From contig NZ_JAFBCA010000001.1 in NCBI RefSeq assembly GCF_016907475.1, positions 186,001 to 250,000 on the forward strand: DNA of 64,000 nucleotides, given 5' to 3'. The stretch comes from Nocardioides cavernae (lineage in GTDB: Bacteria; Actinomycetota; Actinomycetes; Propionibacteriales; Nocardioidaceae). Both the position numbers and the translations under genes were made by a program. Below the pieces are notes generated by a model, which was not told the origin of the DNA, did not search any database, and worked only from the letters and a program-made list of their open reading frames with translations. Below are positions 7,543-40,074 of the stretch, piece after piece (within the stretch, counting starts at the first letter, position 1; every line of letters begins with the position of its first letter).

Positions 7543-8033
7543 GGAGTCGATCGTGGGGCCTCGGGTGCACCTGAGGTCAAGACCCTGCCCGGGCCGATGT
7601 GGAAGCTGCCGATCACGGTGACGCCGTCCTGCGCGTAGAGCGGGATGTCGCGGCCTGCCGGGTCGACGTCGGCCATGTCGGCCGCCGCCTCCTCCGGGCT
7701 GCGCGGCAGGTCCTGCTGCCGGTCGGAGGCTCGGACGAAGCCGCACCTCCCGTTGGTGCCGTAGGCGGCGACCAGGTCGGGCCCCGGGTCGTCCTCGTCG
7801 ATGCCGGCGCCGGAGCCGTAGGACATGCCGTTCTCGTTGACCGGGTAGGGCGGCGCCATCGCGGCCTGGGGACAGTCCTCGAAGACCACCTCCTCGTCGC
7901 GGTGCGCGCTCGGGTCGATCGCGCGGACCATCGGCTGCGGACCGTCGGGCGACGCCACCACCTGGTGCAGCTGCATGCCGCCGAAGAAGCCGACGAGGAG
8001 CGCGGCCGCGCCAGCCAGGACCCGTCTGCTCAC
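7539..8033 (-). CDS. Membrane-anchored extracytoplasmic protein of unknown function
   Basis: 164 residues. I do not recognise the family. GTG at 8033 is chosen because GGAGG lies upstream. The N-terminus (RRVLAGAAALLVGFFGGMQL) is a signal peptide or single membrane anchor. The rest is hydrophilic with two cysteines (FEDCPQAAM and GRCGFVRAS) that could form a disulfide outside the cell, and a C-terminal stretch (YAQDGVTVIGSFHIG) that recalls a small beta domain. It lies between the nitrate reductase genes and the VOC gene, which starts within its last codons. Confidence 0.7.
   Translation of the reverse strand: MSRRVLAGAAALLVGFFGGMQLHQVVASPDGPQPMVRAIDPSAHRDEEVVFEDCPQAAMAPPYPVNENGMSYGSGAGIDEDDPGPDLVAAYGTNGRCGFVRASDRQQDLPRSPEEAAADMADVDPAGRDIPLYAQDGVTVIGSFHIGPGRVLTSGAPEAPRSTP
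7550..7580 (-). promoter_or_regulatory. MerR-type promoter of the VOC gene
   Basis: On the minus strand TTGACC (7580-7575) is followed by exactly 19 bases and then CACGAT (7555-7550), and seven bases later by the ATG at 7542. The spacer contains an imperfect palindrome (CCTCAGGTGCAC then CCGAGG). It matches 20 of 22 operator positions of the promoter at 40037-40067. The whole element lies within the coding sequence of the preceding gene. No MerR gene other than soxR is nearby, and the half-site differs from the SoxR one. Confidence 0.7.
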
Positions 8034-8086
8034 CTGCCACCCTCCTCCGGTACCCCCGTGGGACGCGGCGACGTGCGGAGAAGTTG

Positions 8087-9529
8087 TCAGCCGACCGCGA
8101 CCGGCGCCGGGCTGTCCTCGACCAGGCGACGTACGACGTCCGCGCACCCGCCGCAGCCGGTCGTGGCCCGGGTCCGGTCGACGCACTCGCTCATCGACGC
8201 GCAGGCACGGACCTCGCCCGCGGTCACGCCGGCGCACGCGCAGACCTCCGCCTCGTCGGGCAGCGGCGCCGGGGCGTCCGCCGCCTCGGGCAGGAGCAGC
8301 TGGCCGGGCTCGTCGGGGCCGAGCAGGGTCCCGCGGTCGTAGAGCTGGGTGATGAGCCCGACGCGGGACAGGTCGCCGACGAGCGCCGCGGCGACGATCC
8401 GCCCGCCGTGCACGACGAGGCGGCGGTGCGAGCCGGCGATCGGGTTGGTCACCTCCACGACCTCGCCCTCCGCGCGCTCGGGGTCGCCGAGCACGGCGAC
8501 GTCGAGGCCGGTGGCGCGCAGGCGCGCGACGCTCCGACTGCCGTCGTACGACGCCTCCTCGCCGCGCAGCAGGCGGGCGAGCACCTCGGCCTGCTCCCAC
8601 GCGGGAGGGACGAAGCCGGTCGTACGACGGCGGTGCTCGGCGCAGTCGCCGATGGCGTGCACCCGGTCGTCGGTGACGCTGGTGAGGGTGTGGTCGACCA
8701 CCACCCCGCGACGGACCATCAGGCCGGCGCGGCGGGCGAGCGCGGTCGACGGCCGGCCCCCGGCGGTGAGGACGACGAGGTCGCAGGGCAGGACGTAGCC
8801 GTTGTCGAGCTGCAGCCCGTCGCCGGTGAGCCGGACGGCGCGGGCGCCGGTGTAGACCTCGGTCCCGAGCCGTCGCAGGTCGCGGGCGAGAACGGCCCCC
8901 GCACCGGAGCCGACCTGGCTGGCGAGGAGGTGGTCGGCCCCCTCGACGACCTCGGTGAGCAGCCCGCGCACCGCCAGCGCCCGCGCGACCTGCAGGCCGA
9001 GCAACCCGCCGCCCACGACGACGGCCCTCGGTCTCCTGACAGGGCTCCGCCCTTCCTCGACCAGCGGGGCGGCCGACCCCTCGACCAGCGAGCGGGTGGC
9101 CGCGTCCAGCCGGCGGCAGTCGTCGAGGGTGCGGAACGCGTGGACGCGCGGGTCGAGGGTGCCGTCGCGGCGGACCAGCCCGCGGATCGGCGGCAGGGTG
9201 GGGATCGAGCCGCAGGCCAGGACGAGCCGGTCGTAGGCGACGCGCTGCCCGTCGACCAGCACGACCTCGCGGGCGTCCCGGTCGACCTCGAGCACGCGGG
9301 CCTCGAGGCGCAGGTCGATGCCGTGCTCGGCGTACCACTCCGCCGACCGCAGGGTCAGCGCGTCGGCCGCGTGGGTCCCCTCGAGCACCGCCGACAGCAG
9401 GATGCGGTTGTACGGCGGGCTCGCCTCGTCGGCGAGGACCGTGACCGCGAACCGCTCGTCGCCGGCGAGGTGCTCGCCCAGCCGGGCGGCCGCCATCCCG
9501 CCGCCGACGACCACGACCCGCTCAGGCAT
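8087..9529 (-). CDS. nasB: FAD-dependent NAD(P)H reductase with C-terminal BFD [2Fe-2S] domain, nitrate reductase electron-transfer partner
   Basis: 480 residues. A pyridine-nucleotide-disulfide-type oxidoreductase: FAD loop VVVGGGMAAARL at the N-terminus, NAD loop VVVGGGLLGLQVA near 170-185, and AIGDCAEHRR as the second FAD motif. The C-terminus (about 425-470) is a BFD-like [2Fe-2S] domain with CACAG and CGGC cysteine pairs. This matches the N-terminal part of NirB/NasB proteins without the sulfite-reductase-like domains, so it should pass NAD(P)H electrons to nitrate reductase rather than reduce nitrite. It overlaps nasA by 8 nt. The gene symbol follows that inferred role. Confidence 0.8.
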   Translation of the reverse strand: MPERVVVVGGGMAAARLGEHLAGDERFAVTVLADEASPPYNRILLSAVLEGTHAADALTLRSAEWYAEHGIDLRLEARVLEVDRDAREVVLVDGQRVAYDRLVLACGSIPTLPPIRGLVRRDGTLDPRVHAFRTLDDCRRLDAATRSLVEGSAAPLVEEGRSPVRRPRAVVVGGGLLGLQVARALAVRGLLTEVVEGADHLLASQVGSGAGAVLARDLRRLGTEVYTGARAVRLTGDGLQLDNGYVLPCDLVVLTAGGRPSTALARRAGLMVRRGVVVDHTLTSVTDDRVHAIGDCAEHRRRTTGFVPPAWEQAEVLARLLRGEEASYDGSRSVARLRATGLDVAVLGDPERAEGEVVEVTNPIAGSHRRLVVHGGRIVAAALVGDLSRVGLITQLYDRGTLLGPDEPGQLLLPEAADAPAPLPDEAEVCACAGVTAGEVRACASMSECVDRTRATTGCGGCADVVRRLVEDSPAPVAVG

Positions 9530-11564
9530 GCGCGACCGGTGAGAGGCGGGCGGCGCACACCTTGAACTCCGGCATCCGGGACGCCGGGTCGAGGGCGTCG
9601 TTGGTCAGCCGGTTTGCCCCCACCCAGTGGAACGGCACGAAGACCGTGTCCGGCCGGATCGTCGGCACCACCTTCGCGGGGGCGGTCATCTCGCCACGCC
9701 GGGTCGCGACGCGCACCGCGTCGCCCTGCCTGACGCCGAGGCGCCCGGCGAGCAGCGGGTGCATCTCGACGAAGGGGCCGTCGTCGGGCAGCGAGCGGAC
9801 CCGCCGGGTCTGGGCACCGGACTGGTACTGCGCCAGCACGCGTCCGGTGGTGAGGTGGATCGGGTAGTCCGCGCACGGCTGCTCGGCCGCCCCGCGGTGC
9901 TCGACGGCGTGCATCCGGGCCCGGCCGTCGGCGTGCGCGAAAGACTCGGCGAACAGCCGCTCGCCGCCCCAGAAGACGCCCTGCTCGTCGCGGATCCGGT
10001 CGTAGGTGATCGCCGAGTAGTCGGCCGGGCCGCCCGCCGACGCACGGCCGAGCTCGACGAAGACCTCCTCCGGGTCGGTCGGGAACGACGCCTGCGAGCC
10101 GATCCGCTCGGCCAGTCCCGCGAGCACCTCGAGGTCGGTCCGCACGCCCGACGGTGGCGTGATCGCGCGTTGCCGCAGGACCACCCGACCCTCGAGGTTG
10201 GTCATCGTGCCGGTCTCCTCTGCCCACTGCGTCACCGGCAGCACGACGTCGGCCAGCGCCGCGGTCTCCGACATCACGACGTCGCACACCACGAGCAGGT
10301 CCAGCGCCTCCAGCCGCGAGGTCACGTGGGTCGCGCGCGGCGCACTGACGACGATGTTGGAGCCGAGCACCAGCAGCGCGGACGGCCCGTCGGGCGTGCC
10401 GAGCGCGTCGAGGAGCTCGTACGCCGATCGCCCGGGGCCGGGCAGCGCGTCGGGGTCGACACCCCACACGCCGGCGACGTGCGCGCGGGCGGCGGGGTCG
10501 TCGATGCGCCGGTAGCCGGGCAGCTGGTCGGCCTTCTGCCCGTGCTCGCGCCCGCCCTGGCCGTTTCCCTGGCCGGTCAGGCAGCCGTAGCCCGCACCGC
10601 GCCTGCCCACCATGCCCCGCGCGAGGGCGACGTTGATCCAGGCCAGCACGGTGTCCGTGCCCGTCGAGTGCTGCTCCGCCCCGCGCGCGGTGAGCACCAT
10701 GACGCGGGACTTCGCTCCCAGCATCTCCGCCAGCGCCCGCACCTCGTGCGCGTCGATCCCGGTGACCCGCTCGACGCGCTCGGGCCACCAGGAGGCGACC
10801 GAGTCGCGCACGTCCTCCCAGCCGGTGGTGCGCTCGGCGAGGTACGACGCATCGACCGCGCCGGCGGCGACGAGCAGGTGCAGCACCCCCAGCGCGAGCG
10901 CGAGGTCGGTGCCCGGCACCGGCTGGAGGTGCAGGTCGGCGCGGTCCGCGGTCGGCGTACGCCGCGGGTCGATCACGACGACCTTGCCGCCCCGCTCGCG
11001 CAGCCGGTCGAGGTGGCGGGCTGCGGGCGGCATCGTCTCGACGAGGTTGGAGCCGACGAGCACCAGCACGTCGGTCTCCTCGACGTCGGCGAGCGGGAAC
11101 GGCAGCCCGCGGTCGAGGCCGAAGGCGCGGATGCCCGCCGAGGCGGCCGAGCTCATGCACCAGCGACCGTTGTAGTCGATCTGCGAGGTGCCGAGCGCGA
11201 CTCGCGCGAACTTGCCGAGGGAGTAGGCCTTCTCGTTGGTGAGCCCACCACCGCCGAACACCGCGACCCCGTCCGATCCGCCCGCCACCTGGGCGGCGCG
11301 GATCCCGGCGGCGACCCGGTCGAGGGCGTCGTCCCACGAGACGGCCGACCACTCGCCGGTCTCCCGGTCGCGCACCAGCGGCGACGTGAGCCGCTCGCGA
11401 CCGCCGTACAGCCCGGCCGCGGCCCACCCCTTGCGGCACAGCGCCCCGCGGTTGACGGGGAACTCCTCCCAGGCCGACACCTCGGGCGTGCGCCGACCTG
11501 CCAGGCGCATCCCGCACTGCAGGGAGCAGTAGGGGCAGTGGGTCTCGGTCTGCGTCGCGGTCAT
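9522..11564 (-). CDS. nasA: Assimilatory nitrate reductase catalytic subunit
   Basis: 680 residues, cytoplasmic (no Tat signal). The N-terminal [4Fe-4S] ligands are Cys10, Cys13, Cys17 (CPYCSLQC) and Cys43 (ALCRKGW). Next come molybdopterin-binding regions (GGGGLTNEKAYSLGKFAR, VLVGSNLVET, VIDPRRTPTADRAD) and a C-terminal MoCo domain (MHPLLAGRLGVRQGDAVRV). It reduces nitrate to nitrite using bis-MGD molybdenum. The context of NarK upstream and an FAD/BFD reductase downstream supports nitrate over formate as substrate. A nitrite reductase is not in the window. Confidence 0.88.
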   Translation of the reverse strand: MTATQTETHCPYCSLQCGMRLAGRRTPEVSAWEEFPVNRGALCRKGWAAAGLYGGRERLTSPLVRDRETGEWSAVSWDDALDRVAAGIRAAQVAGGSDGVAVFGGGGLTNEKAYSLGKFARVALGTSQIDYNGRWCMSSAASAGIRAFGLDRGLPFPLADVEETDVLVLVGSNLVETMPPAARHLDRLRERGGKVVVIDPRRTPTADRADLHLQPVPGTDLALALGVLHLLVAAGAVDASYLAERTTGWEDVRDSVASWWPERVERVTGIDAHEVRALAEMLGAKSRVMVLTARGAEQHSTGTDTVLAWINVALARGMVGRRGAGYGCLTGQGNGQGGREHGQKADQLPGYRRIDDPAARAHVAGVWGVDPDALPGPGRSAYELLDALGTPDGPSALLVLGSNIVVSAPRATHVTSRLEALDLLVVCDVVMSETAALADVVLPVTQWAEETGTMTNLEGRVVLRQRAITPPSGVRTDLEVLAGLAERIGSQASFPTDPEEVFVELGRASAGGPADYSAITYDRIRDEQGVFWGGERLFAESFAHADGRARMHAVEHRGAAEQPCADYPIHLTTGRVLAQYQSGAQTRRVRSLPDDGPFVEMHPLLAGRLGVRQGDAVRVATRRGEMTAPAKVVPTIRPDTVFVPFHWVGANRLTNDALDPASRMPEFKVCAARLSPVAHA

Positions 11565-11575
11565 CAGATCTCCCG

Positions 11576-13048
11576 TCAGATTTCAGCGGCGGCGAGCCCG
11601 TGGGCCCGCACCGGTCGACGCAGGTAGAGCACCCAGGTGAGTGTGGCGCAGCCGACGTAGTAGGCGGTGAAGACCGTGAAGGCGGCACGCGTCGCGGTGA
11701 GCGGGTCGCCGACCCAGGGGGCGGCGAAGGCGAGCGGGACCAGGAAGCCGCCCACGGCACCGACCGCGCCGATCACCCCGAGCGCGGAGGACGACTGCCG
11801 GGTGGCCGAGGTGAGTGCGGCAGCCCGCTCCGGCGTGCCCGGCGCGGTCGCGCGCTCCGCCGAGGCCTTCCAGAGGGCGGGGATCATCTTGTAGACCGAG
11901 CCGTTGCCGACGCCGGTGGCGGCGAAGATGCAGAGGAAGAAGCCGAGGAACAGCGGGAACCAGGCGGCGTTGGCGCTCGCGACGGCCGGGTCGGCGCCCG
12001 GGTTGGGCGTGAGCTGGTTGACCGTCCACAGCACCCCGAGGGTGAAGACGACCATCGCGACGAACGACGCCAGGGTCACCCGAGCGCCGCCCCAGCGGTC
12101 GGCCATCCACCCGCCGAACGGACGGGTCAGCGAGCCGACACCAGCGCCGAGGAAGGCGTAGAACGCGAAGTAGATACCCGTACCGAGCGGGGCAGGCTCC
12201 GGCACCCAGAAGTTGAGCCTGATCAGCAGCGGCATCGCGGCCGAGTAGCCGATGAACGACCCGAACGTGCCGATGTAGAGCAGTGACAGCTGCCAGGTCC
12301 GACGCTGCTTCACGACCTGCATCTGCTCCCGTGGCGACGACGTCACGGTCGCCAGGTTGTCCATCCAGAGCCACGCGGCGGCCGTCGCCAGCATCGCCAG
12401 GCCCGCATAGGCGTACGCCGCCCGCTCGAGGTGGATGCCGCCGCCCGACGCCTGCACGAGGCCGAAGATGCCGGCGCCGCCCACCATGACCGGGAGCAGC
12501 AGCTGGATCAGCGAGACACCGAGGTTGCCGCCGGCCGCGTTGAGCCCGAGCGCCGCGCCCTTCTTGTCGGAGGGGTAGAAGAAGTTGATGTTGGCCATCG
12601 ACGAGGCGAAGTTGCCGCCACCCACCCCCGCGGTCGCGGCGATCAGGCAGAAGACCCAGTAGGGCGTCGTCGGGTCCTGCACGGCGTACGCGAACAGCAG
12701 CGTCGGCACCAGCAGCATCGCACCGCTGACGATCGTCCAGTTGCGCCCGCCGAACTTCGGCACCGCGAACGTGTAGGGCAGCCGCAGCAGCGAGCCGACG
12801 AGGTTGGGAAGCGCGACGAGCAGGAACAGCTGCTGCGGGGTGAACGCGAAGCCCTGCGCGAGCAGGAACGCCGACGAGACGCTCCAGATCAGCCAGACCG
12901 AGAAGCCGACGTGCTCGGCGAAGATCGACCACACCAGGTTGCGGCGGGCGACCGCGCGTCCGGTCGATTCCCAGAACTCGGCGTCCTCCGGGCGCCAGTC
13001 CTCGATCCAGCGACGCGCGCGGCGGTTGTCCGTGGCGGGGGTGCTCAT
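11576..13048 (-). CDS. narK: NarK-type MFS nitrate/nitrite transporter
   Basis: 490 residues with about 12 membrane segments. Nitrate signature glycine-rich segments are visible (GVGGGNFASSMANINFFYPSDKKG and, in the second half, ATGVGNGSVYKMIP), placing it in the nitrate/nitrite porter family. ATG at 13048 has GGGAG upstream; a GTG at 13078 would add ten residues. It is first in the narK-nasA-nasB operon, with 11 nt before nasA, and brings nitrate in or exports nitrite. Confidence 0.9.
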   Translation of the reverse strand: MSTPATDNRRARRWIEDWRPEDAEFWESTGRAVARRNLVWSIFAEHVGFSVWLIWSVSSAFLLAQGFAFTPQQLFLLVALPNLVGSLLRLPYTFAVPKFGGRNWTIVSGAMLLVPTLLFAYAVQDPTTPYWVFCLIAATAGVGGGNFASSMANINFFYPSDKKGAALGLNAAGGNLGVSLIQLLLPVMVGGAGIFGLVQASGGGIHLERAAYAYAGLAMLATAAAWLWMDNLATVTSSPREQMQVVKQRRTWQLSLLYIGTFGSFIGYSAAMPLLIRLNFWVPEPAPLGTGIYFAFYAFLGAGVGSLTRPFGGWMADRWGGARVTLASFVAMVVFTLGVLWTVNQLTPNPGADPAVASANAAWFPLFLGFFLCIFAATGVGNGSVYKMIPALWKASAERATAPGTPERAAALTSATRQSSSALGVIGAVGAVGGFLVPLAFAAPWVGDPLTATRAAFTVFTAYYVGCATLTWVLYLRRPVRAHGLAAAEI

Positions 13049-13121
13049 GTCGACGAGCGTCTGCTCCCGGTGTGTCACCCGGCCTGCCGCTCCAGTGGCG
13101 GAGTCGTCAACTTCTCCTCAC

Positions 13122-13140
13122 GACCTCACGACGTGAGGTC
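13122..13140. promoter_or_regulatory. Perfect inverted repeat between narK and the MEDS-ATPase gene
   Basis: GACCTCACG, one central A, CGTGAGGTC: nine-base arms, 19 bp in all. It sits in the 219-bp gap between two divergent genes, 74 nt from narK and 128 nt from the MEDS gene. A further CTCACGA copy lies just upstream. This looks like the operator of a dimeric regulator. The protein cannot be named, and I found no convincing GlnR box here. Confidence 0.55.
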
Positions 13141-13267
13141 GAGACGCGGTCAAGCCTTGATCGTTCCTCCCTTCCCGCACGAGGCTGGAGGGTGCACAAT
13201 CCCAGGGGAAACAGGGACAGACGTGGGACCGAGGGCTCGGCTCGGTGGTGGTGAGGGGTTCTGCTCG

Positions 13268-14191
13268 ATGACCGACCGAGTGCACGCGGTCGCGGCCTAT
13301 GACGAGGCCGCGTCGCTCGTCGCCCACGTCGCCGACTTCGTCGCGACCTCGCTCGACGAGGGCGTTCCGGTCGTCACCGTCAGCCGCCCTGCGCACCGCC
13401 ACGCGGTGGATGCGCTCCTGTCCGCGCGTGGGGTCGACGTCGACCGGGCGCGCCGGGACGGCCGCCTGACCACGCTCGACGCCGACGAGGCGATGGCGCG
13501 TTTCCTGGTGGACGGGCGCCCCGACCCGGGACTGTTCTCAGCCTTCCTCGCGTCCCTGGTCCCGGTGGGCGGACCAGGCGTGAGCGCGTTCGGGGAGATG
13601 GTCGCCATGCTCTGGGAACGGGGCGAGGTGGCGGCCGCCATCGAGCTGGAGTTGCTCTGGAACAGCGCGATAGCGCGACACCCGATCCGGTTGCTGTGCG
13701 CCTACCCGGGGTCCTTGCTCGCCGACGCGGAGCTCGGCGATGTGGCCCGGATGTGCGGTCTCCACGACCACGTCAGCCTGGCCGGGCTGCACCCGCCCCA
13801 CGGTGGGGCCAAGGCCGACGACGACGTCGTCCGCTCGGGCGTGCACCTGCCCGTCCCTGCCGCGGTCGGCTCGGTCCGCGGCTTCGTGCGGGACACCCTC
13901 GCCGGTTGGGACCTCGACCACCTCGTCGGGGATGCCGTCCTCATCACGTCCGAGCTCGCGACGAACGCGGTCACCCACGGCAGCTCGCCGTTCCGGGCCT
14001 CGCTCGCGCGGACCGGCGACGTCGTACGCGTGTCGGTGGAGGACGGGTCGAGCGCGTGGCCCCGCTACCACCGCGCACTGCCCGGTGACCAGGACGGCCG
14101 GGGCATGGCCATCGTCGCTGTCCTGTCACGCCGCTCGGGCTGTGACTCCACGGCGAGCGGCAAGGTCGCCTGGGCCGAGCTCAGCGCCTGA
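13268..14191 (+). CDS. MEDS-domain protein with anti-sigma-type ATPase domain (third MEDS gene)
   Basis: 307 residues. The MEDS half (1-180) has the family core FGEMVAMLWERGEVAAAIELE and the LLCAYPGSLL strand. The ATPase half (about 195-307) has LITSELATNAVTHG as N-box and DGRGMAIVAVLSRR as G-box. It is the same architecture as the protein at 2090-3016 but is not adjacent to a STAS partner. It diverges from the nitrate operon. Start ATG 13268 is where the MEDS domain begins; the frame is open far upstream, which I treat as shadow. Confidence 0.8.
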   Translation: MTDRVHAVAAYDEAASLVAHVADFVATSLDEGVPVVTVSRPAHRHAVDALLSARGVDVDRARRDGRLTTLDADEAMARFLVDGRPDPGLFSAFLASLVPVGGPGVSAFGEMVAMLWERGEVAAAIELELLWNSAIARHPIRLLCAYPGSLLADAELGDVARMCGLHDHVSLAGLHPPHGGAKADDDVVRSGVHLPVPAAVGSVRGFVRDTLAGWDLDHLVGDAVLITSELATNAVTHGSSPFRASLARTGDVVRVSVEDGSSAWPRYHRALPGDQDGRGMAIVAVLSRRSGCDSTASGKVAWAELSA

Positions 14192-14306
14192 CCCGACGCA
14201 CGCTCCGACCGTTCGTCGTACGACACCGACCGCTGGGCGACCGACGACGCCCATCGACCGACGCGGCGACGCGCACCCCTCCCGCGCGGCGAGTGACCGG
14301 TGCCAC

Positions 14307-14322
14307 GGTGACGGCGGTCACA
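14307..14322. promoter_or_regulatory. CRP-like site before the acetate operon
   Basis: GGTGA-N6-TCACA, 9 of 10 matches to the TGTGA-N6-TCACA consensus of Crp/GlxR. It lies 37 nt upstream of the GTG start of the DUF485-actP-acs operon. A crp gene is present at 24031. In corynebacteria and mycobacteria acetate genes are known targets of the GlxR/Crp family, which makes the placement meaningful. Confidence 0.6.
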
Positions 14323-14358
14323 CCCCGTGGCCATCCCGCGCTCGGAAGGACCCGATCC

Positions 14359-14700
14359 GTGACACAGCAAGAGCAGGCCGCGCGCCACGATCCCATCTAC
14401 GACCGGCTGCATGCGACACCCGAGTTCGCCGAGCTGCGGCGTCGCTACCGCGGCTTCGTGTTCCCGGCGACGGTCGCGTTCCTGGCCTGGTACCTGCTGT
14501 ACGTCATCCTCTCCAGCTGGGCGGGCGACTTCATGTCGACGCAGGTCTGGGGCCACATCAACGTGGCGCTGATCTTCGGCCTCCTCCAGTTCGTGACGAC
14601 GTTCGGCCTCGCCTGGATGTACGCCCGCTTCTCCGCCGCCAAGCTCGACCCGCTGGCCCGCCAGCTCGAGGCGGACTACCGCAAGGGAGACGACGCCTGA
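14359..14700 (+). CDS. DUF485 membrane protein, partner of the acetate symporter
   Basis: 113 residues with two membrane segments (FPATVAFLAWYLLYVILSSW and VALIFGLLQFVTTFGLAWMY), the DUF485 pattern. GTG at 14359 is chosen because GGAAGGA lies 8 nt upstream; an in-frame ATG at 14293 has no such signal. DUF485 genes such as yjcH nearly always precede actP, and here the stop overlaps the actP start (TGATG). It probably helps fold or regulate the symporter; the exact role is unknown. Confidence 0.9.
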   Translation: MTQQEQAARHDPIYDRLHATPEFAELRRRYRGFVFPATVAFLAWYLLYVILSSWAGDFMSTQVWGHINVALIFGLLQFVTTFGLAWMYARFSAAKLDPLARQLEADYRKGDDA

Positions 14701-31463: not shown

Positions 31464-31472
31464 GCCCCAATG

Positions 31473-31667: not shown

Positions 31668-32417
31668 ATGACGACGACACTCGACCAGACCACCGGGACG
31701 GCCGCCACCGCGCGCGGCCTGACCCGCACCTACGGCGCCGGCGACAACGCCGTCCACGCCCTGCGCGGCGTGGACCTCGACCTCCCCGCCGGGCGCTTCA
31801 CCGCGATCATGGGCCCGAGCGGCTCCGGCAAGTCCACCCTCATGCACTGCCTGGCCGGCCTCGACGCCGCCACGTCCGGCTCGGTCACCGTCGCCGGGCG
31901 CGACCTCGCCGGCCTCGACGACACCGCGCTGACGATCTTCCGCCGCGAGCACATCGGCTTCGTCTTCCAGGCCTTCAACCTGTTGCCGATGCTGACCGCG
32001 GGCCAGAACATCGTCCTGCCGCTCGAGCTCGCGGGCCGCCCGGTCGACCGGGAGCGCTACGACCAGGTCGTCGGCGTGCTCGGCCTCGCCGACCGCCTCG
32101 GCCACCTGCCCAGCCAGCTCTCCGGCGGCCAGCAGCAGCGCGTCGCGATCGCCCGCGCGCTGGTCACCCAGCCGGACATCGTGTTCGCCGACGAGCCCAC
32201 CGGCAACCTCGACAGCGAGGCCAGCGCCGAGGTGCTCGGCCACCTGCGCCGCTCGGTCCGCGAGCTCGGCATGACCGTCGTGATGGTGACCCACGAGCTC
32301 GACGCGGCGGCGTACGCCGACGACGTGGTCGTCATCCACGACGGTGCCGTCACGGCCCACCTGACCGACCCCGGCCAGGACGAGCTCGTCGCCGCGCTGC
32401 GCGGTCGGGGCGCCTGA
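31668..32417 (+). CDS. ABC transporter ATP-binding protein (MacB/LolD type)
   Basis: 249 residues. Walker A GPSGSGKST, Q-loop FVFQAFNLLPMLT, signature LSGGQQQR, Walker B IVFADEPTGNLD and switch His in MVTHELD are all intact. The N-terminal MTTTLDQTTGTAATARGL begins at ATG 31668; the upstream open frame is shadow. GAGCGT lies 7 nt before the start. It pairs with the FtsX-type permease that overlaps it (TGATG) and probably exports a drug, peptide or lipid-linked signal. Confidence 0.93.
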   Translation: MTTTLDQTTGTAATARGLTRTYGAGDNAVHALRGVDLDLPAGRFTAIMGPSGSGKSTLMHCLAGLDAATSGSVTVAGRDLAGLDDTALTIFRREHIGFVFQAFNLLPMLTAGQNIVLPLELAGRPVDRERYDQVVGVLGLADRLGHLPSQLSGGQQQRVAIARALVTQPDIVFADEPTGNLDSEASAEVLGHLRRSVRELGMTVVMVTHELDAAAYADDVVVIHDGAVTAHLTDPGQDELVAALRGRGA

Positions 32418-34831
32418 TGCGCACCGTGCTGGTGGCGTCGATGCGCCACCACACCCGGAGGTACGTCGCCGCATCGGTGGCCGTCGTGATCGGCGTCGCC
32501 TTCATCGTCGTCATCGGCATGCTCACCGGAGCCACCCGGGCGGGACTGACCGCCGACGCCGGAGCGCCCGTCAGCGGCGTCGACCTGGTCGTCAGCCCGG
32601 ACGCCCCGCGTGAGGTCGAGCGCCTCGTCGACGCGGCCGCCGAGGGCGGCTTCCCCGCCCTCACGCTGGGCTACGCCATGGAGCCGGTCACCCGCGACGG
32701 CGTGCAGCTCGCGCAGTCCGTGGACGTCTCGGAGGTCTCCCTCGACCCGCGCCTGCAGTGGCAGGCCCTCGAGGACGGACGCTTCCCGTCCGCGGCGGGC
32801 GAGGCGCTGGCGGACATCAACCGCGCGAAGAGCAACGACGTCGCCATCGGCGACGTCGTCCGCATCGGGAGCGGACCGGCGGCCACCGACGTCGAGGTGG
32901 TCGGGCTCGTCGACAGCCCGGCGGCCATGGGCGCTGCGCTCTACGTGCCGTGGGAGGACCTGCGGCGCTTCGAGGACACCCTCTGGGTCGACGCCGTGGC
33001 GTGGGGTGGCACCGAGGCGCAGGCCTCCCGGGTCGCCCGCGGCGCGACGGTCGAGACGGCCGACGACTGGGTGGCGGCGCGCCAGGCGGAGATCTCCCGC
33101 GGCGTGGACGTCATCGCGATCATGGCGCTGCTCTTCGTGGTCATCGCCCTGTTCGTGGGCGTGCTGGTCATCACCAACACGTTCTCCATCCTCTTCGCCC
33201 AGCGGATGCGCGACTTCGCGCTGCTGCGTTGCGTGGGCGTCACCCGCCGCCAGCTGCGCCGCGCGATCCGCCTCGAGGCCCTCGCGCTCGGGGTGGCGGC
33301 TGCTGCCCTCGGTGTCGCCGTCGGCGCCCTCGCCGGAGCAGGACTCGTCGCGCTCGTCCGCCGCTGGTTCACCGACATGGGGCCGGCCGCGCTCGACCCG
33401 GTGTGGACCGGTACGGCGTTCGCCGTCGGCACGCTGGTGACGCTCGCCGCCGCCTGGCTGCCGACGCGGTCGGCGACCAAGGTCGCGCCGCTGGCCGCGC
33501 TCCGTCCCGACACCGGCGTGGACGTCCGCTCGGCTGCCGGTCGCTGGCGCCTGGCGCTCGCCGCGCTGGGCGTCTCGGCCGGAGTCGCGCTGCTCGTCCT
33601 CGCGGTCACCGCGAGCTCGGTGCCCGCGATGCTCGCCGGCGGCATCGCCTCCTTCGTCGGCGTGCTGCTCCTGGGGCCGGTGCTGGTGCCGCGGCTGATC
33701 CGCGTGGTCGGCGGGCTCCCCGGGGCCGGCCCCGTCCGGCGGCTGGCCACCGGCAACGCCGTGCGCAACCCGCGTCGTACGGCGACCACCGCGGCGTCGC
33801 TCCTCGTCGGGGTCACCCTGACCACCGCCATCCTCACCGGGCTGGCGTCCTCGCGGACCGCGATCGACAAGGACATGGACCGCTCCTACCCGCTCGACGC
33901 CACCATCACGGCGGGCGAAGCGCCCCTGGGCCCCGACCTCGTCGACCGGGTGGCCGACACCCCGGGTGTGGCCGAGGCGGTCGGGCTGGACGGCGCCACG
34001 GCGACCATCGGCCGGGTCGAGGTCGCGCTCCTCGGCGCGGGCCGGGCTCCCGACGTCGTACGCGGTGGGGCCGACCTCGCACCGGAGGACGGTGTGCTGC
34101 TGCTGCCCTACGACGTCGTCGAGGACCTGCCGGCGCGGACGGCCGAGCGGGTGTGGGAGGACGGCCAGGTGACCGTCACGGTCAACGGCCGCGAGCACAC
34201 CGTGGAGGTCGAGACCGCCAGCGGGTGGGGCCGGTCCGGCCTGGTCTCGGCCGCCACGCTGGCGAGTCTCACCCCCGACCCGCAGCCGATGGGCGTGTGG
34301 GCCAGGGCCAGCGACGGCGCGGACGCCGAGGACCTGTCCGGCGACCTCGCGGCACTGGCCGGGGCCGCCGGCGCCGAGCTCGACGGCGGCCACGGCAACC
34401 GGAGCTGGGTCTACCTCCAGGTCGACATCCTGACCGGGTCGGTCGTCGGCCTGCTGGCCGTCGCCATCGTGATCGCGCTCGTCGGCATCGCCAACACCCT
34501 CGGGCTCTCCGTGCTCGAGCGCGGCCGGGAGAACGCCCTGCTCCGCGCGATGGGGCTGACCCGCCGCCAGCTCGGGCGGGCCATGGCGGTGGAGGGGCTG
34601 CTCCTGTCGTCGGTCGCGACACTGCTGGGCACCGCCATCGGGCTGGCCTTCGCCTGGGTCGGGGTGCAGGTGATGGTGACCGCCGTCGTCGACGACGCCG
34701 CGTTCACCGTCCCGGTGTGGCAGGTCGGGGCCGTCGCCGCGGTCGCCGCCCTCGCCGGCCTGGCCGCGTGCGTCCTGCCGGCCCGCCGTGCCGCCGGCGT
34801 CACGCCGGCGGCCGGGTTGGCGCTCGACTGA
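32417..34831 (+). CDS. ABC transporter permease with two FtsX domains
   Basis: 804 residues. An N-terminal membrane helix and a periplasmic MacB-PCD-like domain come first, then an FtsX four-helix core (about 230-350: FVVIALFVGVLVITNTFSIL, LLRCVGVTRRQLRRAI). A second periplasmic domain and a second FtsX core (about 670-800: NTLGLSVLERGRENALLRAMG, LTRRQL) follow. This is the duplicated permease typical of actinobacterial antimicrobial-peptide or lipid exporters. It is the last gene of the kinase-regulator-ABC unit and ends at a strong hairpin. Confidence 0.9.
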   Translation: MRTVLVASMRHHTRRYVAASVAVVIGVAFIVVIGMLTGATRAGLTADAGAPVSGVDLVVSPDAPREVERLVDAAAEGGFPALTLGYAMEPVTRDGVQLAQSVDVSEVSLDPRLQWQALEDGRFPSAAGEALADINRAKSNDVAIGDVVRIGSGPAATDVEVVGLVDSPAAMGAALYVPWEDLRRFEDTLWVDAVAWGGTEAQASRVARGATVETADDWVAARQAEISRGVDVIAIMALLFVVIALFVGVLVITNTFSILFAQRMRDFALLRCVGVTRRQLRRAIRLEALALGVAAAALGVAVGALAGAGLVALVRRWFTDMGPAALDPVWTGTAFAVGTLVTLAAAWLPTRSATKVAPLAALRPDTGVDVRSAAGRWRLALAALGVSAGVALLVLAVTASSVPAMLAGGIASFVGVLLLGPVLVPRLIRVVGGLPGAGPVRRLATGNAVRNPRRTATTAASLLVGVTLTTAILTGLASSRTAIDKDMDRSYPLDATITAGEAPLGPDLVDRVADTPGVAEAVGLDGATATIGRVEVALLGAGRAPDVVRGGADLAPEDGVLLLPYDVVEDLPARTAERVWEDGQVTVTVNGREHTVEVETASGWGRSGLVSAATLASLTPDPQPMGVWARASDGADAEDLSGDLAALAGAAGAELDGGHGNRSWVYLQVDILTGSVVGLLAVAIVIALVGIANTLGLSVLERGRENALLRAMGLTRRQLGRAMAVEGLLLSSVATLLGTAIGLAFAWVGVQVMVTAVVDDAAFTVPVWQVGAVAAVAALAGLAACVLPARRAAGVTPAAGLALD

Positions 34832-34849
34832 CCACGACGGGCCCACGAC

Positions 34850-34890
34850 GAAGGCCCCGGACCTCCTCGGGGGAGGGGTCCGGGGCCTTC
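34850..34890. terminator. Hairpin between the ABC permease and the convergent membrane gene
   Basis: GAAGGCCCCGGACC at 34850-34863 pairs with 34877-34890, and the inner CCTC/GAGG extends the stem. It lies 19 nt past one stop and 12 nt before the other, so it serves both convergent genes. Confidence 0.8.
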
Positions 34891-34902
34891 GGCTGGTGAT
34901 CG

Positions 34903-35526
34903 TCAGTCGCGCTTGCGGCTGACCAGCACGCCGAGGACGGCGTAGCCCACGAGCAGGTGGACCGCGCCGACGTACATGCCGACGGTCTCGCCGAAGATGC
35001 CGAGCGCGGGGACGGTGACGACCGCCCAGCTCTCGGCGACCATCGGCCAGAAGCGGGCTGCACCCTTCCACCGGCCGGCGATAGCGATCCGGATGCCGAT
35101 GAGGAACATGCCCAGCATCGACAGCGGCCAGAAGAGGTCGAGCACGAGCCAGCCCGGCTGGGTGAGGTCGGAGACCCCGATGGCGTCCACGAACGTCGAC
35201 GCCATCGCCAGGCTGAGAGCGAAGGTCTCGACGCGGATCACGCCACGGGCGATCCGGCCGTCACCCAGGGCGCGGGTGCGCCACAGCACGCGGAGCAGGA
35301 ACAGCAGGCCGACCTGGAACAGGCCGGACCCGAGCCCGAAGACGACGAGGCCGGTGGTGCCCTGCGGGTCCTGGCCGACGGCGAGGATCGAGGCCGACCA
35401 GGCCACGGCGCCGGCGGTGAGGACCCGGCCGTGGAGGAGGAAGGGGCGGGTGGGGCTCGTCGCGGTCCCCGGAGTCGCGGTGGCGACGTCGGAGCGAGCG
35501 GGAGCAGGAGAGTGCGAGATCGTCAC
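34903..35526 (-). CDS. Multi-pass membrane protein of unknown function
   Basis: 207 residues, six or so hydrophobic segments (for example LTAGAVAWSASILAVG, GLGSGLFQVGLLFLLRVLW, FWPLSMLGMFLIGIRIAIAG, YVGAVHLLVGYAVLGVLV) and a basic C-terminus VSRKRD. I do not recognise a family. GTG at 35526 is preferred because ACAGGAG lies 8-9 nt upstream; an ATG at 35544 has no such signal. It diverges from the second two-component system across a promoter region with repeated half-sites, so it may be a target or sensor partner of that system. Confidence 0.7.
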   Translation of the reverse strand: MTISHSPAPARSDVATATPGTATSPTRPFLLHGRVLTAGAVAWSASILAVGQDPQGTTGLVVFGLGSGLFQVGLLFLLRVLWRTRALGDGRIARGVIRVETFALSLAMASTFVDAIGVSDLTQPGWLVLDLFWPLSMLGMFLIGIRIAIAGRWKGAARFWPMVAESWAVVTVPALGIFGETVGMYVGAVHLLVGYAVLGVLVSRKRD

Positions 35527-35644
35527 GGTCGTGACTCCTGTCATCTGGAGGTGGGTCGGCCGCGGGTTGCGGCATGCCAGAAGGTTCGCCGTCCCGACGA
35601 CCCGCCGGGCAGGGAGAGCGGTCCCGTCGCCGGTCCCCTCCGTC

Positions 35645-35701
35645 GTCCCGTCGACACGGGACTCCGGTCCCCTGACGGCGGGACACCTCCGCGGCGATAC
35701 T
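35645..35701 (+). promoter_or_regulatory. Two GTCCC-N8-GGGAC sites upstream of the second kinase
   Basis: Inverted pairs at 35645-35662 (perfect arms GTCCCGT/ACGGGAC) and 35667-35684, centres 22 bp apart. Three more GTCCC half-sites lie at 35591, 35621 and 35633. The second pair ends 11 nt before GATACT (35696-35701), a possible -10 that is itself 6 nt before the GTG start of the kinase. The even helical spacing suggests two dimers binding on one face of the DNA, probably the response regulator at 37828. Confidence 0.6.
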
Positions 35702-35707
35702 GCTCGC

Positions 35708-37831
35708 GTGAGTACGACGACCGCCGGGCGCGCCCGGTCGCGCGCCGCGGTGGCGGCGTACGTCCCCGTGCTCGTCGCTGTCGTCTGCCTGGTCGTGTCG
35801 GTGTGGCTCGACCTGACCAACACCGACGCCGAGCGAACCGCAGCCGACATCGGCTTCGCCTTCCCCGTGGCCCTGCCCGGGCTGGTGCTCGCCGCCTCGG
35901 CCACCTGGGTCCTGCTCGAGCGGCCGGGAGACGCGGTCGGACGCGTGCTCGGCGCGGTCGCCGTGGTCTGGTCGGTCGACGGCGCCCTGTCCGGATGGCT
36001 CGCCCACGGCTACGCGCACGGCTCGGCCGGCACGGACCCCGCGTTCTGGTTCGTGGCGCGCTTCGGGGCCGTCCTGCTGTCCGGGCTGGTGGCCGTGCTG
36101 CTGCTCTACCCGACCGGGAGGCTCCTCGCCGGTCGCTGGCGGGCGATGTCCGTGGGCGTGCTGCTGGCGTCGTTCGCCCTGCCGGTCATGCTCGTCCTCG
36201 CGCCGGACGACGTCGTCTTCACCACGCCCGTGCCGGGCGTCTCGACCGAGCTGGTGGGCCTCCCGGTCCCGGACCCGGTCGCGGAGGCCGTGCTGCGGGT
36301 CGGGCAGGTGCTCACCCTCGGGTCGATCGTGGTCGCCGTCGCGCTGCTGCGGGTCAGGTACCGACGGGGTAGCGGCCGCGAGCGCACCCAGCTGCGATGG
36401 CTGCTGTGGGCGGGGATCATGTGTGTCCTGCTCGTGCTCGCGGGCGCGACGCTCTCGGTCAGCGGGGGCCTCACCACCGTGCTCCTCGACGTCGCGGTGA
36501 TCACGCTGGCCGCCTCGGTGGCCGTCGGGCTGCTGCGCCCGGGGCTCGGCGACGTCGACGCCCTGGTCGCCTGGACCCTGACCACCGCCGTCGTCGCCGC
36601 GATCGTCGTCGGCATCGACCTCGCCGTGCTCGCTGCCGGCACCGCGCTGCTCGGCGACCGGCTCGACCAGCGTGACGTCACGCTCGTCGTGCTCGTGCTG
36701 GCCGTCGTCGTCTACGGCCCCCTCCGCGGCTGGCTCGGCGGGCTCGTCCACCGCCTGCTGCTGGGCCGCCGCAACGACCGCTACGGCGCGGTGTCCGCGC
36801 TGGCGGCCCGGCTCGAGACCATCGGGACGGTCGACGAACAGCTGCCGGCCCTGGCCTCCGCGGTGGCAGACACCTTCAAGGTCCGGCACGTGCGGGTCGA
36901 GGTGCTCACCCCCGACGGCGGTCTGCTCTCCGCCTCGCACGGCACCCCTCCGGCCGAGGTGCAGGAGATCGACATCGCCTACCAGGACGAGCGCGTCGGC
37001 CGGCTCGTGCTCCCCGTCCAGGGCTACCGCTCGATGCTGTCGCGCCGCGACCAGGGCCTGCTGGTCGACCTCGTGCGCCAGGCAGCGGTGGCGATCCGCG
37101 CCCGCCTGCTCGCCACCGAGCTGCAGGCCAGTCGTGAGCGCCTCGTGCTCGGCCGGGAGGACGACCGCCGCCGGATCCGCCGCGACCTGCACGACGGGCT
37201 CGGCCCGGTCCTCGGTGGGGTCGCGCTGCGCCTCCAGGCCGCCGGCAACGCCATCGACACCGACCCCGCCCGCGCTCGCGAGCTCGTCGCCCTGGCCCGC
37301 ACCGAGGTCAGCGACGCCCTCGACGACGTACGCCGCCTCGTGCACGACCTGCGCCCGCCCGCGCTCGACGACCTCGGCCTGGAGGCCGCGGTCCGGCAGC
37401 AGGCCGACCGGGTGCGCTCGGAGGTCGACGTGCACGTCGAGGCCGAGGGCGCGACGGGACTGCCGGCAGCCGTGGAGGTCGCGGCCTACCGGATCGTGTC
37501 GGAGGCGCTCGCCAACGTGGTGAGGCACGCCGGCGCGAGCCACGTCGACGTACGCCTCGAGGGCGACGCGGGCGGGCTGACCGTCACCGTCGCGGACGAC
37601 GGCCGGGGCATCGGTCCCGACGTCACCGCCGGGGTCGGCCTGCTGTCGCTCCGCGAGCGCGCGGAGGAGCTCGGCGGTCGCTGCGAGGTGGTGTGCCCCG
37701 ATTCCGGCGGCACCACCGTCCGCGCGGTCCTGCCGTACGGCGCCGCCGCGGGTGACGCCGTCCCGCCGACCGACCCCCCGACCACCGCGTCGAGCCTGCG
37801 CCGGACCGAAACCGTGAGGAGCACCCGATGA
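35708..37831 (+). CDS. Large sensor histidine kinase with multi-pass membrane domain and GAF-like domain
   Basis: 707 residues from GTG 35708; the longer open frame upstream is shadow. Residues 1-360 hold eight or nine membrane segments. A GAF-like domain covers about 370-470 (LPALASAVADTFKVRHVRVE, ending LVDLVRQAAVAIRARL). The HisKA_3 H-box is DDRRRIRRDLHDGLGPVLGG with His495. The HATPase has VSEALANVVRHAGAS and DDGRGIGP. The outer and membrane part is long enough to bind a lipid-like or cell-wall signal. It is coupled to the regulator by 4 nt. Confidence 0.9.
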   Translation: MSTTTAGRARSRAAVAAYVPVLVAVVCLVVSVWLDLTNTDAERTAADIGFAFPVALPGLVLAASATWVLLERPGDAVGRVLGAVAVVWSVDGALSGWLAHGYAHGSAGTDPAFWFVARFGAVLLSGLVAVLLLYPTGRLLAGRWRAMSVGVLLASFALPVMLVLAPDDVVFTTPVPGVSTELVGLPVPDPVAEAVLRVGQVLTLGSIVVAVALLRVRYRRGSGRERTQLRWLLWAGIMCVLLVLAGATLSVSGGLTTVLLDVAVITLAASVAVGLLRPGLGDVDALVAWTLTTAVVAAIVVGIDLAVLAAGTALLGDRLDQRDVTLVVLVLAVVVYGPLRGWLGGLVHRLLLGRRNDRYGAVSALAARLETIGTVDEQLPALASAVADTFKVRHVRVEVLTPDGGLLSASHGTPPAEVQEIDIAYQDERVGRLVLPVQGYRSMLSRRDQGLLVDLVRQAAVAIRARLLATELQASRERLVLGREDDRRRIRRDLHDGLGPVLGGVALRLQAAGNAIDTDPARARELVALARTEVSDALDDVRRLVHDLRPPALDDLGLEAAVRQQADRVRSEVDVHVEAEGATGLPAAVEVAAYRIVSEALANVVRHAGASHVDVRLEGDAGGLTVTVADDGRGIGPDVTAGVGLLSLRERAEELGGRCEVVCPDSGGTTVRAVLPYGAAAGDAVPPTDPPTTASSLRRTETVRSTR

Positions 37832-38487
37832 CCGAGCCGACGACTCTGCCGATCCGGTTGCTGATCGCCGACGACCACCCGGTCTTCCGCGACGGCCTGG
37901 CCTCGCTTCTCGACCCGCTGCCCGGGATCGACGTGGTCGCCCGCGCGTCCGACGGTGCCGAGGCCGTCGCGCTCGTCGACGAGCACCGCCCCGACGTCGT
38001 GATCATGGACGTGCAGATGCCGGTGATGAACGGCATCGACGCCACCCGAGCGGTCGTCGCGGCGCACCCCGAGGTCGGAGTGCTCGTGCTGACCATGGGT
38101 GAGGACGACGGCACCGTGCTGTCCGCGCTGCGAGCCGGCGCCCGGGGCTACCTCCGCAAGGGGGCGGAGCAGGACGAGATCGTCCGCGCGGTGTCCACCG
38201 TCCACGGCGGCGGCGTCGTCTTCGGTGCCTCGCTGGCGGCACGCATCGCAGAGGTGCTCGCCCCGGCCGGCCGGCCCGAGCGCCCCTTCCCGGAGCTCAC
38301 CGAGCGGGAGACCGAGGTGCTCGACCTCATCGCGGCCGGTCGCTCCAACGGCCAGATCGCGCAGGAGCTGTTCCTCTCGCCCAAGACAATCCGCAACAAC
38401 ATCACCAGCATCCTGGCCAAGCTGCAGGCCACCGACCGCGCCGACGTCATCATCCGTGCGCGGGACGCCGGCCTCGGGCAGGGGTGA
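37828..38487 (+). CDS. NarL/LuxR-type response regulator
   Basis: 219 residues. Receiver with Asp15-Asp16, phospho-acceptor Asp61 (VVIMDVQMPVMNG) and Lys in YLRKGAEQ. LuxR domain at about 150-212 (LTERETEVLDLIAAGRSNGQ, SPKTIRNNITSILAKLQ). The Asn-Asn in the recognition helix is of the DegU/LiaR-like type seen in many actinobacteria. It is paired with the kinase at 35708. Its last codons run into a 14-bp tandem repeat. Confidence 0.93.
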   Translation: MTEPTTLPIRLLIADDHPVFRDGLASLLDPLPGIDVVARASDGAEAVALVDEHRPDVVIMDVQMPVMNGIDATRAVVAAHPEVGVLVLTMGEDDGTVLSALRAGARGYLRKGAEQDEIVRAVSTVHGGGVVFGASLAARIAEVLAPAGRPERPFPELTERETEVLDLIAAGRSNGQIAQELFLSPKTIRNNITSILAKLQATDRADVIIRARDAGLGQG

Positions 38488-38515
38488 AGAGGCAGGGGTG
38501 AAGAGGCAGGGGTGA
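38477..38515 (+). repeat. 14-bp tandem repeat across a stop codon
   Basis: GGCAGGGGTGAAGA occurs 2.8 times in direct tandem (38477-38490, 38491-38504, 38505-38515). The first copy contains the TGA stop of the response regulator gene. It probably arose by slippage. A change in copy number would not alter the protein, because the stop is in the first unit. Confidence 0.85.
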
Positions 38516-38550
38516 GGACGGCGAGGCCTCCGCGGCACTAGGTTCCGTGC

Positions 38551-38949
38551 ATGGAGCGCACCGACGCGGCCGACAGCCGCGAGACGAAGAAGGATCGCGA
38601 CCTCTTCGAGAAGTTCGTCGACCTGTCCACCACGCTGATCAGCCGGGCGCCGTTCTTCGCTGTCGTCGTGGCGGTGGTGGTCGTCTGGGCAGTGAGCTAC
38701 CCGCTGTGGGCGAGCACCACCAAGTGGGAGCTGGCGATCCACACCTTCGGCGGCGTTCTCTCGCTGCTGCTGCTCGTGCTCCTCGAGAACGCCGGCCGCC
38801 GCAACACCGAGGCGATGCAGGAGAAGCTCAACGTCCTCGCCGAGGCCCTCGCCGCGCTGATGGAGGCACAGATCACGGACGACGACCACGAGCTGCGCGA
38901 GGCGGTGGAGGACCTCCGCGAGGCGGTCGGGCTCGAGTCCCGCCACTAG
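38551..38949 (+). CDS. Low-affinity iron permease family membrane protein
   Basis: 132 residues. Two membrane segments (APFFAVVVAVVVVWAVSYPLW and AIHTFGGVLSLLLLVLLENAG) and the motif ENAGRRNTEAMQEKLN match the low-affinity iron permease family (PF04120). Bacterial members are half the size of yeast Fet4 and real transport is not shown. The C-terminal helix is acidic. TAGGTT ends 6 nt before the ATG (leaderless type). Confidence 0.82.
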   Translation: MERTDAADSRETKKDRDLFEKFVDLSTTLISRAPFFAVVVAVVVVWAVSYPLWASTTKWELAIHTFGGVLSLLLLVLLENAGRRNTEAMQEKLNVLAEALAALMEAQITDDDHELREAVEDLREAVGLESRH

Positions 38950-38952
38950 GCC

Positions 38953-39999
38953 TCAGGCCGCGAGCAGCCGCAGCGTCTCCTCGCGCGCGGGTGACGTGCG
39001 TACGTCGGTCCCGGCCGCGGCACCCGCCACGGGGTGCACCATCACCTCGTCGACGCCGTGCTCGGCCGCGAGCTCCTCGATGCGGGTCCGTGCCTGGTCG
39101 GGCGAGCCGACGATCCAGCGCTGCGCCATCGCGTCACCGAAGGCGCGCTGGTCGGCGGTCATCTCGGCGGCCTCCGCCTCCTCGACGAGCCGCTGCGGGT
39201 GGAGCGGCGCACCGGTGCGGAGCGCGATCATCTGCTGCACGTTGGGCAGCGCTCGGCGCCGGGCCTCCTGCTCCGTCTCGGCCACGACGGCGTTCACGGT
39301 GAGGAAGGTCCGCGGCTCGGGGTACTCCGGCGACGGGCGGTAGGACGAGCGATAGAGGTCGAGCGCGGCGCCGGTCCCCTCTCCCGAGAAGTGGTGCGCG
39401 AAGACGTATGGCAGGCCCTTCTCGGCGGCCAGGCGCGCCGAGTAGTCCGACGACCCGAGCAGCCACATGTCGGCGATCGTGCGTGCCGATGGGGTGGCCC
39501 GCAGCGGCTGCCGCCGCGGCCCGACCTGGAGCTCGACGCCCTCGGTCGTCATCAGGGTGCGGATGTCCTCGACGTAGTCGGGGAACTTCGCGACCGCCTC
39601 GTCGGCCGACTCCGCGCTCCCCCCGCGCAGGACGAAGCGGGTCAGCGGGTCGGTGCCCGGCGCGCGGCCGATGCCGAGGTCGATGCGACCGGGGTAGGCG
39701 GCCTCGAGGAGGGCGAACTGCTCGGCCACCACGAGCGGGGCGTGGTTGGGCAGCATCACGCCACCCGACCCGACCCGGATCCGCTCGGTCGCCGCCGCGA
39801 GCATGGCGATCAGGACGGGCGGGTTGGTGGCGGCGACGGCCGGCATGTTGTGGTGCTCCGCCACCCAGTAGCGGCGGTAGCCCAGCTCGTCGGCGACCTG
39901 CACCAGGCTGCGTGAGGCGGCGAGGGCGTCGCCGGTGGTCTGGTCGCTGCGGACCGGGACGAGGTCGAGCACGGACAGGTCGACGGAGGGAGCAGTCAC
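38953..39999 (-). CDS. LLM-class flavin-dependent oxidoreductase (luciferase-like monooxygenase)
   Basis: 348 residues from GTG 39999. A TIM-barrel FMN enzyme of the bacterial luciferase family: LGYRRYWVAEHHNMPAVA, GSGGVMLPNHAPLVVAEQF, and LGIGRAPGTDPLT. It belongs to the group-1 LLM family (YhbW-like). The substrate is unknown. It is divergent from an MFS exporter with 75 bp between start codons holding a MerR-type promoter directed at the exporter, so both may respond to the same compound. Confidence 0.88.
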   Translation of the reverse strand: MTAPSVDLSVLDLVPVRSDQTTGDALAASRSLVQVADELGYRRYWVAEHHNMPAVAATNPPVLIAMLAAATERIRVGSGGVMLPNHAPLVVAEQFALLEAAYPGRIDLGIGRAPGTDPLTRFVLRGGSAESADEAVAKFPDYVEDIRTLMTTEGVELQVGPRRQPLRATPSARTIADMWLLGSSDYSARLAAEKGLPYVFAHHFSGEGTGAALDLYRSSYRPSPEYPEPRTFLTVNAVVAETEQEARRRALPNVQQMIALRTGAPLHPQRLVEEAEAAEMTADQRAFGDAMAQRWIVGSPDQARTRIEELAAEHGVDEVMVHPVAGAAAGTDVRTSPAREETLRLLAA

Positions 40000-40036
40000 T
40001 GTCGGCCCAGCGTCCGCACCCGGTTTGTTATTCCGA

Positions 40037-40067
40037 TTGACCTCAGGTGCACCTGAGGTCCTACCGT
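40037..40067 (+). promoter_or_regulatory. MerR-type promoter with a perfect 22-bp palindrome
   Basis: TTGACC (40037-40042), 19-bp spacer, TACCGT (40062-40067), then 7 nt to the GTG of the MFS gene, so the mRNA is probably leaderless. The palindrome 40039-40060 is perfect (arm GACCTCAGGTG). Spacer length and dyad position are typical of MerR-family activation. The sequence matches the VOC promoter at 7550-7580 at 20 of 22 operator positions. Confidence 0.8.
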
Positions 40068-40074
40068 CGGGCCG

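Follow-up and report, generated by a model that had tools for sequence, protein, structure and literature searches.

A predicted SoxR regulon of MFS, VOC and SDR genes in Nocardioides

Promoter architecture at the MFS, VOC and soxR-SDR loci

The window, a 64,000-nucleotide stretch of Nocardioides cavernae DNA, contains an MFS exporter gene and a gene for a VOC protein whose promoters lie 32 kb apart, together with a soxR gene that is divergent from an SDR-family oxidoreductase gene. From soxR it is about 1.3 kb to the VOC promoter and 34 kb to the pump. The features are as follows.

40037..40067, plus strand: SoxR-type promoter of the MFS gene (-35 TTGACC at 40037-40042, spacer 40043-40061, -10 TACCGT at 40062-40067)
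40039..40060, unstranded: MFS operator, a perfect 22-bp palindrome, GACCTCAGGTGCACCTGAGGTC, with an 18-bp SoxR-box core at 40041-40058
40075..41448, plus strand: MFS exporter gene (PF07690), with GTG at 40075, 7 nt past the -10
7550..7580, minus strand: SoxR-type promoter of the VOC gene (-35 TTGACC at 7580-7575, spacer 7574-7556, -10 CACGAT at 7555-7550)
7557..7578, unstranded: VOC operator, unlike the MFS operator at 2 of 22 positions
7135..7542, minus strand: gene for a VOC/glyoxalase-fold protein (PF00903, PF18029), with ATG at 7542-7540, 7 nt past the -10
5735..6214, plus strand: soxR (TIGR01950, cysteine motif CIGCGCLSLRSC), proposed regulator of the MFS, VOC and SDR promoters
5701..5731, minus strand: SoxR-type promoter of the SDR gene (TTGAAC-19-AACCAT), located between soxR and the SDR gene; the 8 relatives read share this layout
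4996..5694, minus strand: SDR-family oxidoreductase gene, divergent from soxR, a likely third SoxR target

The MFS and VOC promoters share a common MerR geometry, in which TTGACC, a 19-bp spacer and a -10 hexamer are followed after 7 nt by the start codon, and their palindromes are identical at 20 of 22 positions. These features had been described in the original prediction, and direct reading of the sequence confirmed both the shared geometry and the operator details, including the perfect palindrome at 40039-40060 and the two changes at the VOC site. The -35 to -10 distance at both genes is the over-long 19 bp of a SoxR promoter, although the VOC -10 (CACGAT) is poor and is backed mainly by its spacing and by the hexamers GACGAT, GATCAT and GATGAT of relatives. 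Across the SoxR-type promoters of the window the -10 lies 6-7 nt from the start codon, a geometry that suggests leaderless mRNA starts. The best NCBIfam matches of the MFS exporter are SdrM and EmrB, with scores far under their cut-offs. Between the neighbouring LLM oxidoreductase gene and the operator lies a TATTCC element (40028-40035, in the window and in relatives), which probably belongs to the LLM promoter because it is kept in G076 and G077, where the operator is lost.

The soxR product is a confident member of its family, scoring 184.5 bits against TIGR01950 (curated cut-off 116.9), carrying the cluster cysteine motif and matching the E. coli SoxR structure 2zhg at 5e-39. In the adjoining SDR promoter the -35 (5731-5726), spacer (5725-5707) and -10 (5706-5701) are followed by 6 nt and the ATG at 5694; the SoxR box placed earlier at 5706-5725 is off register relative to this MerR frame. 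The MFS and VOC spacers each hold a centred dyad box similar to CCTCAAGTTAACTTGAGG, and matches to the E. coli SoxR box number 14 of 18 for the MFS operator, 13 of 18 for the VOC operator and 13 of 18 for the soxR-SDR box itself. For comparison, the box of S. maltophilia mfsA, a proven SoxR target, matches at 14 of 18 (PMC4411124).

The original prediction had argued from a half-site unlike the SoxR box that the MFS and VOC genes are probably controlled by a second MerR regulator encoded outside the window. The argument loses force in that the SDR box taken as reference is only 13/18 to the E. coli box while the MFS operator is 14/18. The soxR-SDR half-site does differ from that of the MFS and VOC operators, at two places, and the two differences behave differently among the MFS operators of 21 genomes with the SoxR type of the window (helix GFAASA). 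The first lies where the SDR box has A and the window's MFS and VOC operators have G, and it is free: 8 of the 21 genomes have G, 7 have A, 5 have C and 1 has T. The second falls on the central base, a T in the SDR box but in none of the 21 operators (G 14, C 6, A 1), so that the difference there is real but not fixed. The MFS and VOC sites look like slightly altered SoxR boxes, and the two genes therefore probably answer to the nearby SoxR rather than to a second regulator.

Conservation of the operator and its association with SoxR

In the whole genome (a 4.85-Mb single contig, with the window at G000:C1:186001-250000) the MFS and VOC sites are the only operator matches at up to 3 mismatches; a reversed-pattern control gave 0, and the operator 24-mer had 0 matches at the same tolerance in 100 shuffles of the window. 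The genome-wide scan proposed earlier thus turned up no further copy here, and copies are present in relatives: 13 of 118 genus genomes carry one at up to 2 mismatches, in 20 distinct sites of which 11 precede an MFS orthologue, 8 a VOC orthologue and 1 a methyltransferase gene. This last site (PF13649; L022, 1501-1523, in G002) is a 2-mismatch copy in a genome from which SoxR is absent by the TIGR01950 cut-off, an exception to the association with SoxR. Among 294 genomes drawn from across the family, 15 hold the operator at up to 1 mismatch, every one in the same genus. VOC orthologues of at least 76% identity carry the operator (at least 19 of 23 positions) in 13 of 15 cases, and soxR lies within the same 3.4-kb stretch in 11.

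Outside the window, near G000:C1 3419665 (L232), there is a fourth SoxR-type promoter (TTGACC, 19 bp, TAGCGT, 7 nt, ATG) whose box matches that of E. coli at 15 of 18 positions. The short frame downstream resembles the start of a quinone oxidoreductase, and the apparent end of the same protein follows soon after in another frame; by reading, this is probably a dead SoxR target.

Operator presence was compared with SoxR presence across genomes with an MFS match at E <=1e-60 (60 genomes), of which 44 entered the statistics (identity of at least 56%, plus the split gene of G101). The operator score comprised 15 fixed positions, without the variable fourth base and the centre, and was counted only where a start codon sits at the right distance behind the -10; SoxR absence was judged by the TIGR01950 cut-off. 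At a score of at least 11/15 the operator is found in 33 of 35 SoxR-bearing genomes versus 2 of 9 lacking SoxR (Fisher p = 3e-5), and at the other two thresholds tried, 9 and 10, in 33 of 35 versus 4 of 9 (p = 0.002). The scores themselves differ between the two groups (Mann-Whitney 2.7e-4), and 0.7% of shuffled upstreams reach a score of 10. In the remaining 16 genomes the MFS identity is at most 49%; the upstream regions were read in 10 of them (G078 and G105 being unread), with an operator in G090 and G047 and none in 8, and in 4 of the 16 the pump lies near soxR.

Relatedness was considered on the MFS protein tree, built by a quick method with 11 of 41 inner branches open. Among 8 independent pairs differing in SoxR, the operator changes in the same direction as SoxR in an average of 5.4 and runs counter to it in 0.0; the sign test is borderline (median p 0.06). 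The same test for another MerR regulator of this genome, L014, gives 1.5 the same way and 1.4 opposite, of 7 pairs.

SoxR is encoded in the genome and the site tends to be lost where SoxR is lost, with the exceptions G028, G036, G084, G092 and, doubtfully, G069. G028 has a SoxR of the same type, yet its MFS gene lacks the operator, while G084 and G092 lack SoxR and keep a recognizable, partly decayed site. G036 combines a SoxR of another subgroup with a decayed operator, and its nearest relatives G018 and G114, without SoxR, have decayed sites too; an ancestral loss followed by a later gain of the other SoxR would explain this pattern. In G069 (L222) the soxR frame shifts after about residue 99 and the cysteine motif is absent, the pump operator being kept, which is a recent break or a sequencing error; recounting this genome as lacking SoxR gives 32 of 34 versus 3 of 10 (p = 1e-4). 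SoxR absence in G076 and G092 is less sure because these assemblies are fragmented.

The operator also varies with the SoxR subgroup. The comparison took in the 32 genomes in which both the MFS operator and SoxR were read; G101, one of the 33 of 35 above, is not among them. All 21 genomes with the SoxR helix GFAASA carry G at position 11 of TTGACCTCANN in the MFS operator, and 10 of the 11 whose helix is GVATSA, GVAPSA or GLAHSA carry C there (p = 2e-7, uncorrected for relatedness). The wing alone does not set this base, since E. coli SoxR shares the GNQR wing with the C-reading group and nevertheless has a box with G at that place.

Operator neighbourhoods and alternative regulators

Scanning the species genomes of GTDB for TTGACCTCANGTGCACNTGAGG yielded 40 loci. 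Of the 15 MerR proteins of the N. cavernae genome, 14 served as queries in checking these loci for MerR genes (L015, whose frame is unclear, was omitted). A MerR gene is present at 12 of the 40, with SoxR the best match in 11 and another MerR in 1 (L245). At ten of the 11 loci with SoxR, its gene is no more than 163 bp away from the operator (L237, L240, L246, L252, L253, L258, L266, L267, L270 and L271, that of L246 being a 39-residue fragment at a contig end); the eleventh, 1.3 kb away, is at a Nocardioides VOC locus (L268). A Micrococcales MAG (L240) and two Tetrasphaera MAGs (L266, L270) have the operator in the gap that separates soxR from a divergent MFS pump, the pumps being 33-45% identical over the aligned part, and at L258 it stands between soxR and an SDR gene related to that of the window (53%). 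Among the ten soxR-adjacent operators, 8 carry the AAGTGCACTT core in place of AGGTGCACCT, and L240 and L271 have one changed half. Four genomes (G014, G083, G034 and G081) have a zinc-type dehydrogenase gene starting from the soxR-divergent box, with a distant MFS homologue immediately after it; the dehydrogenase reads as a quinone oxidoreductase, with a Pfam basis for G014 only. In two Corynebacterium records and one Microbacterium record (L252, L253, L267) the box stands behind soxR in the same direction. The next gene past it encodes a superoxide dismutase in L253 (PF00081, PF02777) and, by reading, in L267; the L252 record stops too early to show what follows.

The alternative proposed earlier, that another MerR-family regulator encoded elsewhere binds the MFS and VOC operators and SoxR only the soxR-SDR box, is improbable. 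It draws on the differing half-sites (CTCAGGTG versus CTCAAGTT), on the central T of the SDR box, found in 0 of 21 MFS operators, on the 15 MerR_1 matches in the genome and on the operator copy in G002 without SoxR. Against it, operator presence tracks SoxR and neither L014 nor L013 among the regulators profiled over the 44 genomes (SoxR, L014, L013 and L004, with the MerR genes L005 and L008 left out); L004, present in 43 of 44, cannot explain operator losses and is uninformative. L014, which we take to be BmrR-like from its sequence, was attractive as a multidrug sensor but was not found in seven operator-bearing genomes (G007, G017, G046, G045, G087, G005 and G021) and is present in operator-less G108 and G077. 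Only 7 of the 44 genomes have L013, and 5 of these are close relatives. In G000, L005 and L008 have palindromic promoters of their own with a start codon close behind, of a different, TTGACTTCGAG type. The MerR gene with its own operator copy that the original prediction proposed to look for is found nowhere among the 15 of this genome, none of the PF13411 MerR genes here carrying one. Around MFS orthologues, 20 stretches of 10-14 kb were searched with SoxR, five further MerR proteins and a motif, and no MerR gene stands beside the orthologue in any of them; the sole motif match, in L082, does not look like a MerR protein. Hence, apart from the non-SoxR MerR adjoining the operator at L245, no MerR gene other than soxR was found to carry or adjoin the operator or, among those profiled, to track its presence. 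The evidence leaves the proposal of a second regulator unsupported and favours SoxR, whereas the broader idea of a scattered detoxification regulon under MerR-type activation is supported.

The LLM oxidoreductase suggested earlier as a possible member of the regulon is an unlikely one, since relatives without an adjacent LLM gene keep the pump operator (G003, G044 and G066 among them). G076 and G077 keep the LLM gene and have lost both operator and SoxR.

Repressors outside the MerR family, those of the TetR family for example, commonly bind perfect palindromes that overlap a promoter, and one of this kind might here block an ordinary promoter. Such a reading is very hard to sustain, because a 19-bp spacer is too long for a promoter that works unaided, and the palindrome sits within such a spacer in 33 of 35 SoxR-bearing relatives, tends to vanish with SoxR and, in the operator scan, is found adjoining soxR. 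Least credible of all is that the two sites are alike by chance or through recent copying of a promoter segment, for which the mere 32 kb between them might speak, as shuffles give 0 expected matches, the flanks beyond the two promoters look unrelated by reading, and relatives keep both sites separately at different distances, which already contradicts it.

Proposed SoxR regulon and comparison with known systems

The promoter geometry, the uniqueness and conservation of the operator, its loss together with SoxR, its gene neighbourhoods and its covariation with the SoxR subgroup are the basis for assigning these sites to SoxR. On these grounds the MFS and VOC operators are very probably clade-specific SoxR boxes, and their regulator the SoxR encoded in the window (5735-6214). 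The predicted regulon, comprising SDR, VOC and MFS genes, is new and small, and what is modestly new within it is the VOC target and the leaderless geometry. No report of a SoxR regulon in Nocardioides was found among the matches listed in the literature on SoxR/MerR, VOC, MFS and Actinobacteria.

SoxR binding, redox sensing, activation, leaderless mRNAs and substrates would here follow established SoxR biology. A SoxR dimer would occupy the palindrome within the over-long 19-bp spacer and, once its [2Fe-2S] cluster is oxidized, for example by a redox-active natural product, would distort the spacer so that the -35 and -10 become usable by RNA polymerase, with transcription starting at or beside the start codon. 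A single signal could in this way reach the MFS pump, the VOC protein and, through the soxR-divergent promoter, the SDR reductase. More speculatively, and with the odds against it, SoxR of the Nocardioides clade may have relaxed its reading of the fourth base from the box centre and drafted the VOC gene into its regulon. On one redox signal, leaderless mRNAs would then supply three defences against a redox-active soil antibiotic, with the VOC protein binding or altering it, the SDR enzyme reducing it and the MFS pump exporting it.

An apparent orphan regulon thereby becomes a set of predicted SoxR targets in Nocardioides, and a VOC protein joins the kinds of gene that SoxR may control. The natural variants, both the joint loss of operator and SoxR and the operator base that follows the SoxR subgroup, should be useful for studying how SoxR reads DNA.

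In BmrR-Bmr type pairs a MerR regulator activates an MFS multidrug pump through a long-spacer promoter. The pump described here likewise stands behind a long-spacer MerR promoter; unlike in those pairs, the BmrR-like regulator of this genome, L014, does not co-occur with the operator.

A close parallel in promoter form is the SoxR-mfsA pair of S. maltophilia. The report on that pair describes SoxR as a MerR-family activator with a [2Fe-2S] cluster, which in its oxidized state activates promoters whose -35 and -10 flank the dyad it binds, and gives the mfsA promoter as TTGACC, 19 bp, CATGCT (PMC4411124); recognition by the MerR family is treated in PMC5045206. Both systems combine an MFS pump with a -35 TTGACC, a 19-bp spacer and a palindromic box 14/18 to that of E. 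coli. In S. maltophilia, however, soxR and mfsA share one intergenic region and mfsA transcription starts 39 nt upstream of the ATG (PMC4411124), whereas the N. cavernae pump gene stands 34 kb away from soxR and its mRNA is probably leaderless.

In composition the predicted regulon resembles that of S. coelicolor, where a small SoxR regulon responds to the redox-active antibiotic actinorhodin (PMC4146615). Its six targets comprise an ABC transporter, oxidoreductases, a monooxygenase, an epimerase/dehydratase and a quinone oxidoreductase, and the terms VOC and major facilitator are absent from the text of that paper. Both regulons are small, actinobacterial and scattered, and pair a transporter with redox enzymes, among them in S. 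coelicolor the quinone oxidoreductase (PMC4146615). By the same logic as that of S. coelicolor SoxR and actinorhodin, the three Nocardioides genes would be expected to be induced together by a redox-active compound.
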